Virus record (IMG/VR): IMGVR_UViG_3300046794_000317
Coordinates: 1-38,784 of that record
Strand: one strand, 5' to 3'
DNA length: 38,784 nt
From: a virus
Part shown: positions 7,469 through 21,616 of the stretch, one piece after another
Layout of the letters: every line of letters starts with the position of its first letter
Numbering within the stretch: position 1 is the first letter of the stretch
The notes under the pieces: model-generated
The model's input: only the letters and a program-made list of their open reading frames with translations
What the model was told of the DNA's origin: nothing
The model's database searches: none
Made by a program: the position numbers and the translations under genes

Positions 7469-8209
7469 ATGCACATTCAAATGGAACGGCTGTACCGCGC
7501 GGCCAAGGAACTCAAGAACATCGGCAGCCAGGCCGAGCTGGCGCGTGCGCTGAACCAGTCCTCGCAAACCATCAACAACTGGGAGGCGAGGGGCATTTCG
7601 AAGTCTGGCTTCCTGATCGCGCAGACGGAGATCGGTTGTTCTGCTGCCTGGCTGATGACCGGCGAAGGGCCGATGACCGTCACCACCCAGGTGGCACAAG
7701 ATGTGGATTCGGACGGCTTCATCACGAACACTCACGGCGGTGCCGTCGACGGTGCACAGCGCGTGCAGGTCGGAAGCGGGCCGGAGACGATCCCTATCCG
7801 AGCGGTCAAGCTGCACCTGCAGGCTGGTGTGAGCGGATTTGTCGCTGAGCCAGACCTTGAAGTCGATCACGGATATTTCCAGGTTCCGAAATACGTGATC
7901 GAGCGTCTTCAGCTGAACCCAGCCGATCTGATAATCATGGCCGTCAAGGGCCGCAGCATGGAGCCGATGTATTTCGAGGACGATAAGGTTCTGGTAGATA
8001 CATCGAAACAGATTCCCAAGAATAACGAGTGCTTTGCCGTGAATTGGAACGGTGAGCCGATTGTGAAATGCCTCATTAAAAAGGCGAATGACTGGTGCCT
8101 TTATTCGTTCAATCCTAAATTCCCGAGCATCAGTGTTCGAAGCGGACAGGCGAGCATTATCGGGCAGGTTATTTGGCAGCCAGAGCGAATCGTAGTAGGA
8201 CGACTGTAA
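7469..8209 (+). CDS. cI: CI-type repressor with LexA-like (S24) self-cleavage domain
   Basis: A 246-residue lysogeny repressor. Residues about 8-65 are a helix-turn-helix (IGSQAELARALNQSSQTINN). Residues about 110-245 are a LexA/CI peptidase domain with the Ala119-Gly120 cleavage site (LQAGVSGF), nucleophile Ser163 in GRSMEP and general base Lys200 in PIVKCLIKK. RecA-stimulated cleavage and SOS induction of the prophage follow from family knowledge. The ATG at 7469 is chosen because longer versions would run through the operators; ATG 7481 is an alternative. The stop abuts the ATG of the HIRAN gene, so the lysogenic transcript carries both. Confidence 0.93.
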   Translation: MHIQMERLYRAAKELKNIGSQAELARALNQSSQTINNWEARGISKSGFLIAQTEIGCSAAWLMTGEGPMTVTTQVAQDVDSDGFITNTHGGAVDGAQRVQVGSGPETIPIRAVKLHLQAGVSGFVAEPDLEVDHGYFQVPKYVIERLQLNPADLIIMAVKGRSMEPMYFEDDKVLVDTSKQIPKNNECFAVNWNGEPIVKCLIKKANDWCLYSFNPKFPSISVRSGQASIIGQVIWQPERIVVGRL

Positions 8210-8599
8210 ATGGAAGAATGTATTGCGGCTCCCTTCATTGAAGGGGCTGGGAATTATCGAATTGATGTGGCTGGCGAATCATTCTATGAAGAGAGTTTCG
8301 CGGCTTTATGTGGTGAGCGGACGATTGAAGGCGTGCGTATTGAGTCCCGTGCGCAGTTGACGCTGCAGGATGACAACCCTCACGACAAGCACGCGGTCGC
8401 AGTGTCGATCGGCGGCCACCAGGTCGGCCACTTGTCCCGTGACGATGCGCGGGCTTTCCGTCGGCTGGTCCGGTACGGGCCGCTAAGCCTTCATGAGCGC
8501 TTCGAGTGCTCGGCCTTAATATGCGGCGGCTGGGATCGCGGCGACGGTGATGTAGGAAATTACGGCGTTCGGCTCGACCTGCTGCTCGACGAAGAATAA
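8210..8599 (+). CDS. HIRAN-domain protein
   Basis: A 129-residue stand-alone HIRAN domain. Visible landmarks are VAGESFYEESFAALCG, then LTLQDDNPHDKHAVAV and GGHQVGHLSRDDARAF, matching the HIRAN pattern of strands with a conserved Asn-Pro-x-Asp. HIRAN domains bind DNA ends, especially 3' ends, in HLTF and related proteins. The ATG follows the cI stop with no gap, so it is made in the lysogen. This is the position of lambda rexA. A role in lysogen protection or sensing of incoming or damaged DNA is inference. Confidence 0.83.
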   Translation: MEECIAAPFIEGAGNYRIDVAGESFYEESFAALCGERTIEGVRIESRAQLTLQDDNPHDKHAVAVSIGGHQVGHLSRDDARAFRRLVRYGPLSLHERFECSALICGGWDRGDGDVGNYGVRLDLLLDEE

Positions 8600-15124: not shown

Positions 15125-16816
15125 ATGCTCCGCGAGACCCTCACCCAAGATATCACCCACTTCCACTTCTGCTGCGGCATCGGTGGCGCAGCCAAGGGCT
15201 TCAACAAGGCCAATCCGCGCATCCCCGGTATGCAAGCCAAGATGCGCTGCCTGGGCGGCGTCGACGTTTCGCCGTCGGCCATCCGCGACTTCGATCGCCT
15301 GGTGGGCGTGCCTGGCACCGTGATGGACCTGTTCACGCGCGGCCAGTACACCGCCTTCCATGGCAAAGAGCCGCCGGCGGCCTGGAAGGAGATGGGCCCG
15401 GTCGACATTCGCCGCGCCGCCGGCAACGAGCGCCCGAACATCGTGTTCATCAGCAGCCCATGCAAGGGCGCCTCGGGCCTGTTGTCCGAGAAGATGAGCC
15501 AGACCGCCAAGTATCAGGCGTTGAACGAGCTGACGCTGCGCTGTATCTGGTTGATGGCCGAGGCCTGGGCCGATGATCCGGTCGACCTGATCGTGTTCGA
15601 GAATGTGCCGCGGCTGGCCACGCGAGGCCGGCATCTGCTGGACCAGATCAACCAGGTGCTGCAGCGCTATGGCTACGCCGTGGCCGAGACCACGCACGAC
15701 TGCGGTGAGCTGGGCGGCCTGGCCCAAAGCCGCAAGCGCTTCCTGCTGGTGGCGCGCCACACGGAGAAGGTGCCGCCGTTCCTGTACGAGCCGGAGAAGA
15801 AGCGCCTGCGTGCCGTGGGCGACGTGCTCGGTCGCATGCCGTTCCCGGGCGATGCCGTGGCCGGCCCGATGCACCGCATCCCGCGCCTGCAGTGGAAGAC
15901 CTGGGTGCGCCTTGCCTTCGTCGAGGCCGGCAGCGACTGGCGCAGCCTGAACCGCCTGGCTGTCGAGAACGGGCACCTGAGCGATTACCTGATCGTGCCA
16001 GACATGCACCGCGGCGTGCTGGGCGTGAACGGCTGGGCCGATTCGATGGGCACGGTGACAAGCCGCAGCATGCCAATGAACGGGAACTTCGGCGTTGCCG
16101 ATCCGCGCTTCGATTCCGGCGTCTACGATTGCGGCCAGTACGGCCTGTGTGGCTGGAACGAGACGATGGGCGCGGTCATCAATGTGAAGAGTCCGGGCCA
16201 GGGCATGTTCGCGGTGCAGGATCCGCGATCGACCAGCGCGTTCGATGGCGCCGGCAAATACCAGATCACGCCCTTCGACCAGCCGGCGGGTACCGTGATC
16301 GCCGCCAGCACTACCGGCCAGGGCGCCTTCGCCGTCGCCGACCCGCGCACCAGCCTGAACACCCGCCAGCAGGGCGATGCCTACCTGACCGGCGGCCACT
16401 ACGGCGTGGTGCCGTGGGGCTCGCCCAGCGGCGCCGTAAGCGCGGCCGCGCGCCAGGACAACGGCCGCTGGTCGGTCGCTGACCCGCGCATCGACACGCT
16501 GCCAGCACCAGACCAGAAAACTGTCGCGATTATCCGCGCGCTGGACGGCACCTGGCACCGGCCGTTCACCACGCTCGAGCTGGCCGCGCTGCAGTCGCTG
16601 ATCGAGCCCGAGGAATACCTGCTGCTGGACGGGATGAGCGACAGCGTATGGCGCGAACACATCGGCAACCTGGTGCCGCCGGAGGCTGCATGCGCGATCG
16701 GGGAAGTGATGGGTACAACGCTGCTGCTGGCACGCGCTGGCGAGACCTTCGTACTGGGCTCGACGCCGATCTGGGTGCGGAATGTGGCGCTGGCTCTGAC
16801 AATGCCGGCGGCGTAA
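15125..16816 (+). CDS. C5 cytosine DNA methyltransferase with tandem-repeat target domain
   Basis: A 563-residue enzyme that transfers a methyl group from SAM to C5 of cytosine in DNA, likely protecting phage DNA from restriction. Motifs are in order: I (FHFCCGIGG, about 13-21), IV with catalytic Cys113 (PCKGAS), VI (ENVP, 159-162), VIII (QSRKR, 201-205), IX/X (TTLELAALQ and IGNLVPPEA near the end). Between VIII and IX lie four units of about 40 residues that each end in a F/W-x-V-x-D-P-R motif (328, 368, 408, 455). It is longer than typical phage Dcm proteins because of this. The ATG at 15125 follows the winged-helix gene by 5 bases. No cognate endonuclease is present. Confidence 0.9.
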   Translation: MLRETLTQDITHFHFCCGIGGAAKGFNKANPRIPGMQAKMRCLGGVDVSPSAIRDFDRLVGVPGTVMDLFTRGQYTAFHGKEPPAAWKEMGPVDIRRAAGNERPNIVFISSPCKGASGLLSEKMSQTAKYQALNELTLRCIWLMAEAWADDPVDLIVFENVPRLATRGRHLLDQINQVLQRYGYAVAETTHDCGELGGLAQSRKRFLLVARHTEKVPPFLYEPEKKRLRAVGDVLGRMPFPGDAVAGPMHRIPRLQWKTWVRLAFVEAGSDWRSLNRLAVENGHLSDYLIVPDMHRGVLGVNGWADSMGTVTSRSMPMNGNFGVADPRFDSGVYDCGQYGLCGWNETMGAVINVKSPGQGMFAVQDPRSTSAFDGAGKYQITPFDQPAGTVIAASTTGQGAFAVADPRTSLNTRQQGDAYLTGGHYGVVPWGSPSGAVSAAARQDNGRWSVADPRIDTLPAPDQKTVAIIRALDGTWHRPFTTLELAALQSLIEPEEYLLLDGMSDSVWREHIGNLVPPEAACAIGEVMGTTLLLARAGETFVLGSTPIWVRNVALALTMPAA

Positions 16817-17774: not shown

Positions 17775-18053
17775 ATGATGGGTGACTTGAACAGGCAGCA
17801 AATCTGCGCCGCGCTGGGCGTGAGCGAATCAACAATAAGGCGGCTCGAGCAGGCTGGTCTACCATATACGCCGGTGGGCGTGAGGTCGAAGCGGTACGAC
17901 CTGGGCGAGTGCAAGAAGTGGTTAAAGGAGAATCAGCAGTGTCAATCTGGGAAGATAAAGACGGTCGGAAGCACGTTGGAGTCATGGTCGAAGGCAAGCG
18001 AGTTCACCGAATCTTGCCGAAGGGTGCATCTGCGAGTGATGCCAAGCGTGTAG
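17775..18053 (+). CDS. xis: Excisionase-like (MerR/AlpA-type) DNA-binding protein
   Basis: Residues about 5-50 are a MerR-like winged helix (RQQICAALGVSESTIRRLEQ, then a wing VGVRSKRYDLGECKKWL), the fold of many phage excisionases and AlpA regulators. It is directly upstream of the integrase and overlaps its start by about 115 bases, a classic xis-int arrangement. The C-terminal 35 residues, encoded in the overlap, look less protein-like. Two ATGs (17775, 17778) follow a G-run. The gene symbol is by position and fold. Confidence 0.75.
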   Translation: MMGDLNRQQICAALGVSESTIRRLEQAGLPYTPVGVRSKRYDLGECKKWLKENQQCQSGKIKTVGSTLESWSKASEFTESCRRVHLRVMPSV

Positions 18054-18934
18054 AAGCCGAGATCCGCGCCGCTGTGGCGCGGGCGCCGAAGACCGTCAAC
18101 ATTCCGGGCGATCCGTCGATGATCGCCATCCTGAACCTGTTCGTCGAGCATTCGAAGACGCTGCGCAGTTCGGAGACGTCCAAATACCATGCCAAGCGTC
18201 TCGGGCCCTGGGCCGAGAAGTACAAGGCGAGCCAGGCGCAGGAGTTTGCCGACCAGGTGATCAAGGACATGAGCCAGCTGGTCGAGCACCCGAAGACGAA
18301 AGAGATGAAGCCAGCGTACGCGCCGGCCACGATCAACCGATCGCTGGCGTGCGCGAAGAAGGGACTAGACATCGCATGGCGACAGCGCCTGATCCCGGAG
18401 AACTACGGCCTGCGCATCAAACTGGTGAGCGTCAACAACAAGCGGGAGGTTTTCCTGACGGTTGATCAGGTGCGCCAGATCGCGCAGCACTGCTCCGAGC
18501 AGGCCCAGGCGGCGATCTGGTTTGCGCTGCTGACCGGCGCGCGCCGTGGCGAGATCTTCAAGATCCGGGCCGAGCACATCGGTGCGGAGACGATCACCCT
18601 GCCGGCCAGCCATACGAAGACCAACCGGATGCGCGTCATCCCGATCATCCCCGCACTGCGTCCGTGGCTCAAGCACCTGCCGCTGACGATCACGGTCGAC
18701 GGCGTGAAGTCGGCCTGGCGCCGTGCGCGCGTGACGGCCGGCATGGAGCACGTGAACTTCCACGACCTGCGGCACTCGTGCGCGAGTATCATGCTGGGCC
18801 TGGGCGTGGACCTCTACACCATCAGCAAAATCCTCGGGCACAGCACGATCCAGACCACGCAACGGTATAGTCACCTGCAGGTGGACGCGCAGCGCGCCGC
18901 GCTGGAGAAGCTGGGCGCCCTGGCCAGCAAATAG
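17939..18934 (+). CDS. int: Tyrosine integrase
   Basis: A 331-residue site-specific recombinase for insertion at, and excision from, the tRNA-Val target. The GTG at 17939 is preferred because AAAGGAG lies 8-9 bases before it; a longer ATG frame (17909) lacks a site. The N-terminal about 60 residues are an arm-type DNA-binding domain, about 60-165 a core-binding SAM-like domain, and 170-330 the catalytic domain with Arg202 (TGARRGE), Lys227 (HTKTNR), His275-x-x-Arg278 (HDLRH), His301 (LGHST) and nucleophile Tyr310 (RYSHL). It is followed by a terminator and attP. Confidence 0.95.
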   Translation: MSIWEDKDGRKHVGVMVEGKRVHRILPKGASASDAKRVEAEIRAAVARAPKTVNIPGDPSMIAILNLFVEHSKTLRSSETSKYHAKRLGPWAEKYKASQAQEFADQVIKDMSQLVEHPKTKEMKPAYAPATINRSLACAKKGLDIAWRQRLIPENYGLRIKLVSVNNKREVFLTVDQVRQIAQHCSEQAQAAIWFALLTGARRGEIFKIRAEHIGAETITLPASHTKTNRMRVIPIIPALRPWLKHLPLTITVDGVKSAWRRARVTAGMEHVNFHDLRHSCASIMLGLGVDLYTISKILGHSTIQTTQRYSHLQVDAQRAALEKLGALASK

Positions 18935-19037: not shown

Positions 19038-19085
19038 GCATTCACACTGCAGGGGTCGCAAGTTCGAAACTTGCACTTCCCACCA
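19038..19085 (+). other. attP: attP core: 3' half of a tRNA-Val(CAC)-like gene
   Basis: The 48 bases read as the end of a tRNA: anticodon loop TTCACAC (19041-19047, anticodon CAC), anticodon-stem 3' strand TGCAG, variable GGGTC, T-stem GCAAG, T-loop TTCGAAA, CTTGC, acceptor strand ACTTCCC, A and CCA (19083-19085). The 5' part of a tRNA is absent. Integrases of this type cross over in the anticodon stem-loop, and the phage core rebuilds the host gene. Placement directly after int supports it. The host tRNA identity is inferred from the anticodon. Confidence 0.88.
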
Positions 19086-19208: not shown

Positions 19209-19940
19209 CTACGCATTTACACCGATTACACCGGCCGGCACTGGCTGAGCCACCGGCTGCTCCGGCACCTGATGACGCCGCGGCTGCACGCGGGTGGTGG
19301 TGATCGACATCGGCAGGAATAGTGGCTCATCCCGTTGCGGGCCCTGCCGCTTCACGAACCCAATATTGATCCCGCCAGGCGCCGGCCGCACGCTCAAGCG
19401 CAGCGGCGCCGGTGAGGCGTCAACCTCGGCAGCCAGGGTGCGCATGTTGAAGAACAGCGTTTCGCCCTGCTGGGCGGCCAGGTGCAGGCGGCGCAGACTG
19501 TCGGCGCGGACGTGCTGCATGCGCGCGCTGTTCGTGCTCTGGCCGGGCCAGAAGAGCAGGGCACCGTAGCTGCCCGTGCGCAGCACCTGCTCGGCGGCCC
19601 ATAGTGCGTCTGCCGTGCGATCGGCGCGGATCCAGATGGCCGAGGCCGGAGGAATGCCCAGCGCGGCCAGCGACAGCGCCTGGGGCACGTGAGGCGGCGT
19701 AAGCAGCACGACGCGGCGGTCGGCCACCTTGGCCAGCGCCGGCGCCAGCAAGCGCATCTCTCCGATGCCCGGCTGCTGCACCAGCAGATCGACCAGCGTG
19801 CCAACTGGCCAGCCGCCGCCGGGGAGCTGATTCGACAGGGCCGGATGGCCCGTATCGACGCACCGCGTGCGGCCGCGCGCCAGCTGGGAAGCTCGCCAAA
19901 GCGACGGGTGAAGCGCTTCGAGGGCTGGCGCAGTGGTCAT
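19209..19940 (-). CDS. imuA: ImuA-like SOS mutagenesis accessory protein (orphan)
   Basis: A 243-residue RecA-related protein of the ImuA family (COG4544 type), in bacteria the first gene of the SOS-induced imuA-imuB-dnaE2 error-prone repair set. Visible blocks are LWRASQLARGRTRCVDTGHP, LPGGGWPVGTLVDLLVQ, PGIGEMRLLAPAL (degenerate Walker region), the hydrophobic VVLLTPPHVPQALSLAALGI, IWIRADRTADALWAAEQVLR, RLHLAAQQGETLFF and FVKRQGP, all in family order. The ATG at 19940 follows GGAGAG; a LexA box is 15 bp upstream. No imuB or dnaE2 is present. It lies between attP and the lysis genes; its last seven codons (GVIGVNA) are made of integrase arm repeats. Confidence 0.88.
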   Translation of the reverse strand: MTTAPALEALHPSLWRASQLARGRTRCVDTGHPALSNQLPGGGWPVGTLVDLLVQQPGIGEMRLLAPALAKVADRRVVLLTPPHVPQALSLAALGIPPASAIWIRADRTADALWAAEQVLRTGSYGALLFWPGQSTNSARMQHVRADSLRRLHLAAQQGETLFFNMRTLAAEVDASPAPLRLSVRPAPGGINIGFVKRQGPQRDEPLFLPMSITTTRVQPRRHQVPEQPVAQPVPAGVIGVNA

Positions 19941-19955
19941 GTTTCTCTCCAAAAA

Positions 19956-19975
19956 TACTGTATGCGTGTACAGTA
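19956..19975 (-). promoter_or_regulatory. LexA (SOS) box of the imuA gene
   Basis: TACTGTATGCGTGTACAGTA has both 7-base arms of the E. coli consensus intact (CTGT-N8-ACAG at 19958-19973). A TATACT -10-like hexamer (minus strand, 19977-19972) overlaps it. Host LexA should repress the gene until DNA damage. Confidence 0.88.
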
Positions 19976-20043
19976 TATCAAGGATCAAACTGACAACTGA
20001 TAAACCTCAGTCGGCTACCGAAACGGTGCCTCACCATGAGGGA

Positions 20044-20220: not shown

Positions 20221-20284
20221 GCCGGCCGTCCACCACCCGCGCGACCAGCACCGCGCCGCGCGGCGTGATGACATGAAGGTCCAT
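20108..20284 (-). CDS. Possible last gene of the lysis operon, 58 aa
   Basis: The ATG (20284) overlaps the Rz stop as TGATG, so translation could be coupled. It starts MDLHVITPRGAVLVARVVDG, beta-like, then becomes Pro-rich. It overlaps antisense the frame at 20044-20220. Coupling favours it; the low-complexity end speaks against it. Confidence 0.45.
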   Translation of the reverse strand: MDLHVITPRGAVLVARVVDGRLILPPAPAEHPAGSAPAPLHPPELRCTQACMTPPAKL

Positions 20285-20772
20285 CAGGGCACCATACCGT
20301 TTTCATGCAGGAAGCGTTGGCATGCCCGACCGGTTGCTAGATCTTCCTCAACCTGAAGCTTCAGCGCGACAATATCTCGCTCAACGTCTGGTCGAACCAG
20401 CCGGCCGGGTGAATCGGTGCTGTCGCTGCCGGCGGCGCCTTCGGCTTTGGTGGGGGCGGGAGGTCCGCCACCACATACCGCGGAGCCGACGTACACGCGC
20501 CGAGTAACAATGCGCTCGCGAACAGGGGCCACTTCTTCATGCTTTTTCTCCGTGATGGTTGCGTTGCTGACGGCCTGGCGGACTGCCTCGGCCGCGTTGG
20601 TTTCGGTGCGCTTGCGCACGGCCTCGGCGTCGGCTGCTGCGCGCTCGGCGATAGCGTCAGCGCGGCCAGCTTCGAACCGCGCGGCGCCATAGTGCTTCAG
20701 GCCCAGCCAGCAGCCGACCGCCAGCACGGCCAGCAACAGCACGGCGGCCAGCAGCCGCTCGAGCGCGCTCAC
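20284..20772 (-). CDS. Rz: Rz-like inner-membrane spanin (i-spanin)
   Basis: A 162-residue i-spanin that, with Rz1, fuses inner and outer membranes as the last lysis step. One N-terminal membrane helix (residues about 5-25, LERLLAAVLLLAVLAVGCWL) is followed by a long periplasmic Ala/Glu/Arg-rich coiled-coil region. The GTG start overlaps the endolysin stop (GTGA), which decides it. Rz1 lies inside this gene in another frame. Order holin, endolysin, Rz/Rz1 is classical. Confidence 0.87.
   Translation of the reverse strand: MSALERLLAAVLLLAVLAVGCWLGLKHYGAARFEAGRADAIAERAAADAEAVRKRTETNAAEAVRQAVSNATITEKKHEEVAPVRERIVTRRVYVGSAVCGGGPPAPTKAEGAAGSDSTDSPGRLVRPDVERDIVALKLQVEEDLATGRACQRFLHENGMVP
20361..20540 (-). 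CDS. Rz1: Rz1-like outer-membrane lipoprotein spanin, nested in Rz
   Basis: A 59-residue frame wholly inside Rz. It has a lipoprotein signal ending in LLLGAC (lipid on Cys16) and a short Pro-rich mature part (DLPPPPKPKAPPAATAP), the hallmark of Rz1 o-spanins. The ATG at 20540 has GGAG at a good distance. The C-terminus ends LSEILSR. Confidence 0.87.
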   Translation of the reverse strand: MKKWPLFASALLLGACTSAPRYVVADLPPPPKPKAPPAATAPIHPAGWFDQTLSEILSR

Positions 20773-21236
20773 GACCGCACCTCGGCCGGCAGCACGTCGA
20801 AGCGCGCCAGGTCGCGGCCGCGCATGATCGAGATCAGCTTGTCGGCATAGCCCGGGTCGGTGGCATAGCCGGCCTTGGCCGCGGCGCGCGCCCAGCCTTC
20901 GCCGGTCTTCTCCAGGAAGCACTGGCGGTAGCGCGGGTTGTCGAGGAAGAAGCGGGCGTGGTCGACCAGGCTGTCGCCCATGCTGGCGTACGCGCGGAAT
21001 TGCGCCGTGATCGCCACGCGCTGGTCGTTCAGGACCTCGTGCGTGTTGATGGGCACGGTCGGGCCCTTCCAGCTGGGATCCGCCTTGATGCCGAACAGGT
21101 TGTTGCCGGGTGCGCGGTTGCCCCAACTCGATTCCAGCGCCGCCTGCGCGATCGTGAAGCTGGCCGGGATGCCGCTGGTACGTTGACAGGTGCGGGCTCC
21201 AACCAGGATCTGGTCGATGAATTTATCGGGCGTCAT
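20769..21236 (-). CDS. Endolysin: FlgJ-like N-acetylglucosaminidase (GH73)
   Basis: A 155-residue peptidoglycan hydrolase. It has the glucosaminidase pattern: SGIPASFTIAQAALESSWG with catalytic Glu35, NNLFGIKADPSWKGPTV, FRAYASMGDSLVDHARFF, then WARAAAKAGYATDPGYADKL. There is no signal peptide, so it should reach the cell wall through the holin. The ATG overlaps the holin stop (TGATG). Confidence 0.92.
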   Translation of the reverse strand: MTPDKFIDQILVGARTCQRTSGIPASFTIAQAALESSWGNRAPGNNLFGIKADPSWKGPTVPINTHEVLNDQRVAITAQFRAYASMGDSLVDHARFFLDNPRYRQCFLEKTGEGWARAAAKAGYATDPGYADKLISIMRGRDLARFDVLPAEVRS

Positions 21237-21616
21237 CAGACCATCTCCTTCACGTCCCTTACGATCTCGGCCAAGTCGGCATCGCGGCGCTTGTCGAGGA
21301 AGATGAACAGCGCGCGGATCAGCGCCCAGCCGGGCAGGCCGCAGGCGAAGGCGAAGGCCAGCATGGCGACCATCCCAAACGGATCCTCGACCCAGTGCTG
21401 GAAGCCGAGCCAGCGCACGAGCGCCGAGCCGCCGCCGATCGAGCTGACCAGGGTGCAGATCAGGGCGACGCGCCATTCCTGATCGGTCTTGGGCTTAGTC
21501 AGTGCCATGACCACGAAGGCGGCCAGGCTGGCGCCGATAGCACCCATGCCGGCGAGACCGCCGATGATCTTCCAGCCTGCTACGCCGGCGGCGGTGCCGG
21601 AAATTGGTTCACTCAT
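21236..21616 (-). CDS. Probable holin (three membrane helices)
   Basis: A 126-residue protein with hydrophobic segments at about residues 15-40, 50-70 and 80-108 and a charged C-terminus (FLDKRRDADLAEIVRDVKEM). Position directly before the endolysin makes a holin likely. The start is either MSEPISG (21616) or an ATG five codons earlier (21631); neither has a strong ribosome binding site, as is common for holins with tuned expression. A dual start cannot be excluded. Confidence 0.75.
   Translation of the reverse strand: MSEPISGTAAGVAGWKIIGGLAGMGAIGASLAAFVVMALTKPKTDQEWRVALICTLVSSIGGGSALVRWLGFQHWVEDPFGMVAMLAFAFACGLPGWALIRALFIFLDKRRDADLAEIVRDVKEMV

Follow-up and report, generated by a model that had tools for sequence, protein, structure and literature searches.

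A partnerless imuA gene behind a LexA box in temperate phages of Massilia-type bacteria

The imuA locus and its LexA box

The DNA analyzed here, hereafter the window, is the whole of IMG/VR record IMGVR_UViG_3300046794_000317 (38,784 nt), a complete circular temperate phage genome whose first 128 bases recur at its end as a 128-bp terminal direct repeat. On its minus strand lies an orphan imuA gene (19209–19940; ATG at 19940, stop codon ending at 19209) that encodes a Walker-less RecA-fold protein of 243 amino acids. In bacteria, ImuA works with ImuB and DnaE2 as an SOS mutasome.

In the window, imuA occupies the slot between attP and the lysis cassette, a customary site for lysogenic cargo. 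On one side are a tyrosine integrase gene (17909–18934, plus strand; phrog_1, E 3e-49) and the attP core (19052–19085, plus strand), which corresponds to the 3ʹ end of a tRNA-Val(CAC) gene by a 34-bp identity to Massilia tRNA-Val. This 34-bp sequence is matched exactly at tRNA-Val genes in four of the five Massilia genomes searched and with two mismatches in the fifth. On the other side, upstream of imuA, the lysis cassette comprises genes for an Rz-like spanin (20284–20772, minus strand), a glucosaminidase (20769–21236), and a putative holin (21236–21616) assigned solely by position and small size. Because the genome is circular and has imuA placed between its attP and lysis genes, an order shared by related phages, imuA is a phage gene, and the possibility that it belongs to a host flank was ruled out. 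The window further encodes a terminase, a portal protein, a P-like helicase loader, RecT, a YqaJ-type exonuclease, and a cytosine-C5 methylase (15125–16816, plus strand), approximately 530 bp of whose gene are about 80% identical to a methylase gene of Achromobacter phage CF418P1. A CI-like repressor with an S24 peptidase domain is encoded at 7469–8209 on the plus strand (PF00717, E 7e-19; phrog_4), and the serine in GRSMEP, a lysine, and an Ala-Gly site are readable in it, as expected from the original prediction of a self-cleaving type of prophage repressor. Immediately downstream is a gene for a HIRAN-domain protein (8210–8599, plus strand).

By sequence profile, fold, and clade, the window protein is a member of the ImuA family, as had been proposed from the sequence. 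It matches the ImuA_translesion model NF033429 over model positions 1–181 of 181 with 205.2 bits (E 7.5e-61; curated cutoff, 150), and SulA models score below their cutoffs (25.3 versus 150 bits; Pfam SulA, 12.9 versus 23.1). No PHROG family matched the protein, and a search for close ImuA proteins among 50,697 annotated phage records gave no match. While a phmmer search of the PDB with the single ImuA protein found nothing, a profile search instead reached RecA and SulA. The AlphaFold model (mean pLDDT 75) likewise resembles RecA in fold (Z 14.6), with SulA close behind (Z 13.9; 1OFU). Both Walker motifs are missing: the P-loop position reads QQPGIGEMR, and the position of the Walker B aspartate is W131.

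Fifteen base pairs upstream of the imuA ATG is a LexA box, TACTGTACACGCATACAGTA, a 20-bp palindrome of the form TACTGT-N8-ACAGTA on the minus strand (19956–19975, core 19958–19973), with the intact arms and spacing originally reported. No other exact CTGTN8ACAG occurs in the window; approximately 10 sites with at most one mismatch are expected by chance in 38.8 kb, and a single box alone would be weak evidence. The imuA box is far beyond chance, however, because it is kept 15 to 18 bp before imuA in all 34 viral homologues from a first search of IMG/VR (33 with exact CTGTN8ACAG, one, L014, with CTGGN8ACAG) and because chromosomal Massilia imuA promoters bear a box of the same type. A −10-like hexamer, TATACT (19972–19977, minus strand), overlaps the box and recurs in 33 of these 34 homologues, with GATACT in L030; no good −35 element is present at 16 to 18 bp from the hexamer in the window copy. 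In two related phages, a second LexA-type box is found on the far, att-facing side of imuA (L148:3945 and L149:3946).

Divergent from imuA is a 58-codon gene, C3 (20044–20220, plus strand), whose product is predicted to form three helices and matches nothing in Pfam or PHROG. Relatives of C3 lie upstream of imuA in 24 of the 34 first-set viral loci. The family (L118–L162; about 60 amino acids, MxxRTDLxTASRVDLALILLP...GVPxEVAARVL..RR) is found where the lysis genes meet att in Massilia-type phages, but imuA is present at only 17 of the 45 C3 loci, in one case as a fragment, which rules out C3 as an obligate imuA partner. In some phages lacking imuA, other small genes with LexA boxes fill the place beside C3 (L139:1572, L145:588, L146:383, L155:4935, and L156:4935; all on the minus strand), as if this slot collects SOS-controlled cargo.

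A mobile ImuA lineage and its missing partners

Homologues of imuA were found at the lysis/att end of 46 IMG/VR records, a count drawn with a query set skewed to Oxalobacteraceae from viral records that are in many cases fragments, and containing a few near-identical records. The first scan yielded 34 viral loci at 63% to 87% identity. A further 12 intact orphans of this ImuA type came from a profile scan, which also returned one truncated copy and two records that were set aside; 11 of the 12 adjoin recognized phage genes. L163 was left out due to dnaE2-like DNA downstream of its imuA, as was L164, whose ImuA is nearer to those of Burkholderiaceae and whose imuA has no recognized phage gene as a neighbor; L232, a second complete imuA-imuB-dnaE2 operon, and L233 and L234, whose extra copies are imuA fragments, were also left out. 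Searches for more distant viral ImuA proteins with Pseudomonas and Rhodanobacter queries found none, and, as these scans used few exact peptide patterns, they are weak negatives.

Gene order in the viral loci is constant, running from the lysis genes, often through C3, to imuA and then, where the contig extends, to att and integrase. Conservation of imuA beside att in related phages, a lack of which the original prediction had named among its refuting outcomes, is supported. Since the window portal protein was found in just one of 30 other phage records, imuA is carried on differing phage backbones. This search was used in place of a phrog_2 terminase scan, which gave too few matches for typing the carriers. 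Three of the viral loci have an Hcp-like (type VI secretion) gene on the opposite strand adjoining imuA (L019:4360–4848, L022:3938–4426, and L028:3736–4224), and one record (L208:4022–4290, the same record as L143) contains a truncated or frameshifted phage imuA that retains its LexA box.

In bacterial genomes, imuA is nearly universal, occurring in 60 of 62 genomes of a Massilia-group genus. An orphan second imuA is present in eight of the 62; seven adjoin phage-type genes, and one is on a plasmid. The plasmid orphan (L036:5986–6705 and L220; Massilia putida plasmid NZ_CP019036) is the second gene, after one for a 115-amino-acid hypothetical protein, with a LexA box approximately 400 bp upstream of imuA. 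One genome copy, L235, has a disrupted N-terminus. All eight genomes bearing an orphan also have chromosomal imuA-imuB, a co-occurrence that is uninformative because nearly all of the genomes have imuA.

The phages themselves lack the partners. Searches for ImuB and DnaE2 were empty in 31 phage records (the window and 30 related records) and positive in all three Massilia control genomes, which agrees with the original statement that neither partner is in the phage genome. None of the 31 records holds an imuA-imuB-dnaE2 cassette in one element.

A tree was built from 111 ImuA proteins collected by similarity to the query. It groups the plasmid orphan with 33 copies from phages or prophages in a single clade (99/90), next to 70 chromosomal Oxalobacteraceae sequences. 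Because this set was gathered by similarity, the analysis was repeated with independently found copies from the genus-wide profile scan, and the split between orphan and chromosomal copies held (one change, with none of 500 shuffles as low). The window gene is read as a phage-adapted orphan within a single mobile lineage of ImuA in Oxalobacteraceae phages.

Substitution patterns indicate that the orphan copies are under purifying selection, with a core dN/dS of approximately 0.16 for phage copies and 0.23 for host copies (Nei–Gojobori; approximate, since phage dS is high). In nearly all host loci, imuA and imuB share about 74 nt, an overlap that is gone in phages, where the last 30 codons are free to vary (entropy 2.55 bits versus 0.9 in hosts). 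The host tail has a low dS, and the overlap with imuB largely explains its conservation.

Candidate roles of the phage protein

RecA has an acceptor surface that takes the N-terminal (RecA-NT) motif of the neighboring subunit. By profile alignment to RecA residues ~110–144, on which the interface argument depends, the equivalent surface in the window ImuA is formed by residues 99–131 (codons at 19548–19646, minus strand), a segment whose conservation in phage orphans at least matches that in hosts (entropy 0.45 versus 0.55 bits). In mycobacteria, induced mutagenesis requires a RecA-NT-homologous motif of ImuB that binds ImuAʹ (PMC11791113). Following the Walker B-like strand of the window protein is a nine-residue loop insertion (residues 132–140; codons at 19521–19547, minus strand) that is typical of phage copies, occurring in 68% of them and in 0% to 1% of host ImuA proteins.

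The original prediction was that the phage may adjust host mutagenesis or RecA activity during induction, or raise lysogen mutability. Of its parts, the orphan ImuA, its LexA box, the self-cleaving type of repressor, and conservation among phages are supported, with the amendment that the partners missing from the phage are present in Massilia-type hosts; for this reason, a role in supplementing the host mutasome is feasible. On the favored reading, phage ImuA, induced during SOS, would act as an adaptor within the host ImuB–DnaE2 mutasome and supplement or re-tune it, a proposal that we consider about evenly balanced between right and wrong. We infer damage induction, ImuB docking, and a translesion effect, which would proceed as follows. 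Upon DNA damage, host LexA would be cleaved, and phage imuA, driven by its own promoter, would be expressed alongside host imuA-imuB and dnaE2. The RecA-like acceptor surface of phage ImuA would dock with the RecA-NT motif in host ImuB, and the phage protein would thereby supplement or re-tune the ImuB–DnaE2 translesion machine. The same damage would inactivate the prophage repressor, and the phage could replicate its damaged genome with greater translesion capacity; surviving lysogens might be more damage tolerant or mutable.

Several points weigh against such an adaptor. The host already makes its own LexA-controlled ImuA, which leaves the benefit of a second copy unclear. The loop insertion and the loss of the host-type C-terminal tail could alter or abolish contacts with ImuB or DnaE2. 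Moreover, the conserved acceptor residues fit binding to RecA equally well.

Action on RecA is the main rival, possible though unlikely. Here, phage ImuA would bind the N-terminal motif of RecA or a filament end and lower recombination or coprotease activity, with the outcome that repair shifts away from recombination, that SOS is damped after induction, or that the phage RecT and exonuclease are favored. The RecA fold with its retained acceptor surface is compatible with this role, to which the orphan state is irrelevant, and the window phage encodes its own RecT and YqaJ-type exonuclease. There is also a precedent in Myxococcus xanthus, whose ImuA binds RecA and inhibits recombination according to Sheng 2021, as cited in PMC11791113. 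However, the M. xanthus protein belongs to the ImuA3 group, which is ATPase active, whereas proteobacterial ImuA1 proteins, like the window protein, are without Walker motifs (PMC12926913), and the literature searched gave no RecA-binding data for ImuA1. A broader version, likewise possible though unlikely, is that a phage-dedicated ImuA with an altered RecA-L1-like loop and tail acts on host RecA, re-tunes ImuB–DnaE2, or both. If this is true, the altered protein would serve the phage as a switch that sets recombination against error-prone synthesis, through which a prophage sways repair, mutation, or lysis of damaged lysogens.

Two other roles are less likely than action on RecA. Phage ImuA might titrate host ImuB into a non-productive complex, such that mutagenesis of phage and lysogen DNA is reduced during SOS. 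The phage has no partners, and its ImuA keeps the acceptor surface while the 132–140 insertion and the tail diverge, a pattern in favor of a dominant-negative protein; yet about one-third of phage copies are without the insertion, and host tail conservation is mostly due to the 74-nt imuB overlap, as seen in the low host tail dS. Such a role is improbable. A still more doubtful proposal is an SOS cell division inhibitor that acts on FtsZ in the manner of SulA. The structural closeness to 1OFU and weak SulA profile matches give it some basis, and an alignment pairs R75 and L80 of the window protein with R62 and L67 of E. coli SulA, which, along with W77 and K87, we take to be functionally important. 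The latter two residues are replaced by S90 and S100, leaving two of four key residues, every SulA cutoff is missed widely, and the protein is approximately 70% identical to chromosomal ImuA encoded in an operon with imuB.

Finally, the view of imuA as a chance acquisition from a host, of no use to the phage, is already disfavored and very remote: the damaged copies in L208/L143 and L235 are what a passenger might leave, but the dN/dS of ~0.16, the conserved promoter and box, and the long persistence of a single clade across phages whose portal proteins differ argue against it.

Novelty and relation to known systems

Carriers of orphan ImuA are many temperate phages of soil Massilia bacteria. 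No earlier description of a phage-borne orphan ImuA was found in the literature searched for ImuA with phages or prophages, a collection covering a minority of subscription papers. The ImuA family itself is known; a phage-specific, partnerless ImuA lineage with its own LexA-box promoter appears to be new. Of the subunits of the widespread ImuA–ImuB–DnaE2 mutasome, ImuA is the least understood, and a long-lived, imuB-less lineage under strong selection with its own LexA-box promoter offers natural variants with which an ImuB-linked role might be separated from a RecA role. The distribution of orphans in eight of 62 Massilia-group genomes points to a single subunit, borne by prophages and one plasmid, that could alter host SOS mutagenesis.

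The chromosomal ImuA proteins of Oxalobacteraceae (ImuA1 group) are of the same family, with ~58% to 74% identity, the same type of LexA box, and the same conserved core. Unlike these, phage copies have no adjacent imuB or dnaE2 and no 74-nt overlap, have a variable tail and, in two-thirds of cases, the nine-residue insertion, and form a separate clade carried by phages and one plasmid. SulA (PF03846, 1OFU) shares the Walker-less RecA-core fold and is under LexA control, as is predicted for the window gene from its box, but the window ImuA fails its profile cutoffs and lacks two of its four key residues. SOS mutagenesis genes are also found on other mobile DNA, as complete imuABC cassettes on plasmids or ICEs such as ICEPni2 (PMC7466150); those elements carry all three genes, whereas the phages here carry imuA alone.

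The nearest precedent for the proposed role, by analogy, is HumD of phage P1. HumD is LexA regulated (PMC9603915) and, according to McLenigan 1999 as cited in PMC4713147, is an orphan UmuDʹ homologue supplied to host UmuC. The two proteins differ in origin: HumD is UmuDʹ-like and serves the Pol V system, whereas the window protein is an ImuA of the DnaE2 system with a RecA fold rather than the LexA/S24 fold of UmuDʹ, and they share no homology. The likeness is one of role only, each being an orphan phage homologue of an SOS mutasome accessory protein, LexA regulated in the case of HumD and predicted to be so in the case of the window protein, whose partner would come from the host.
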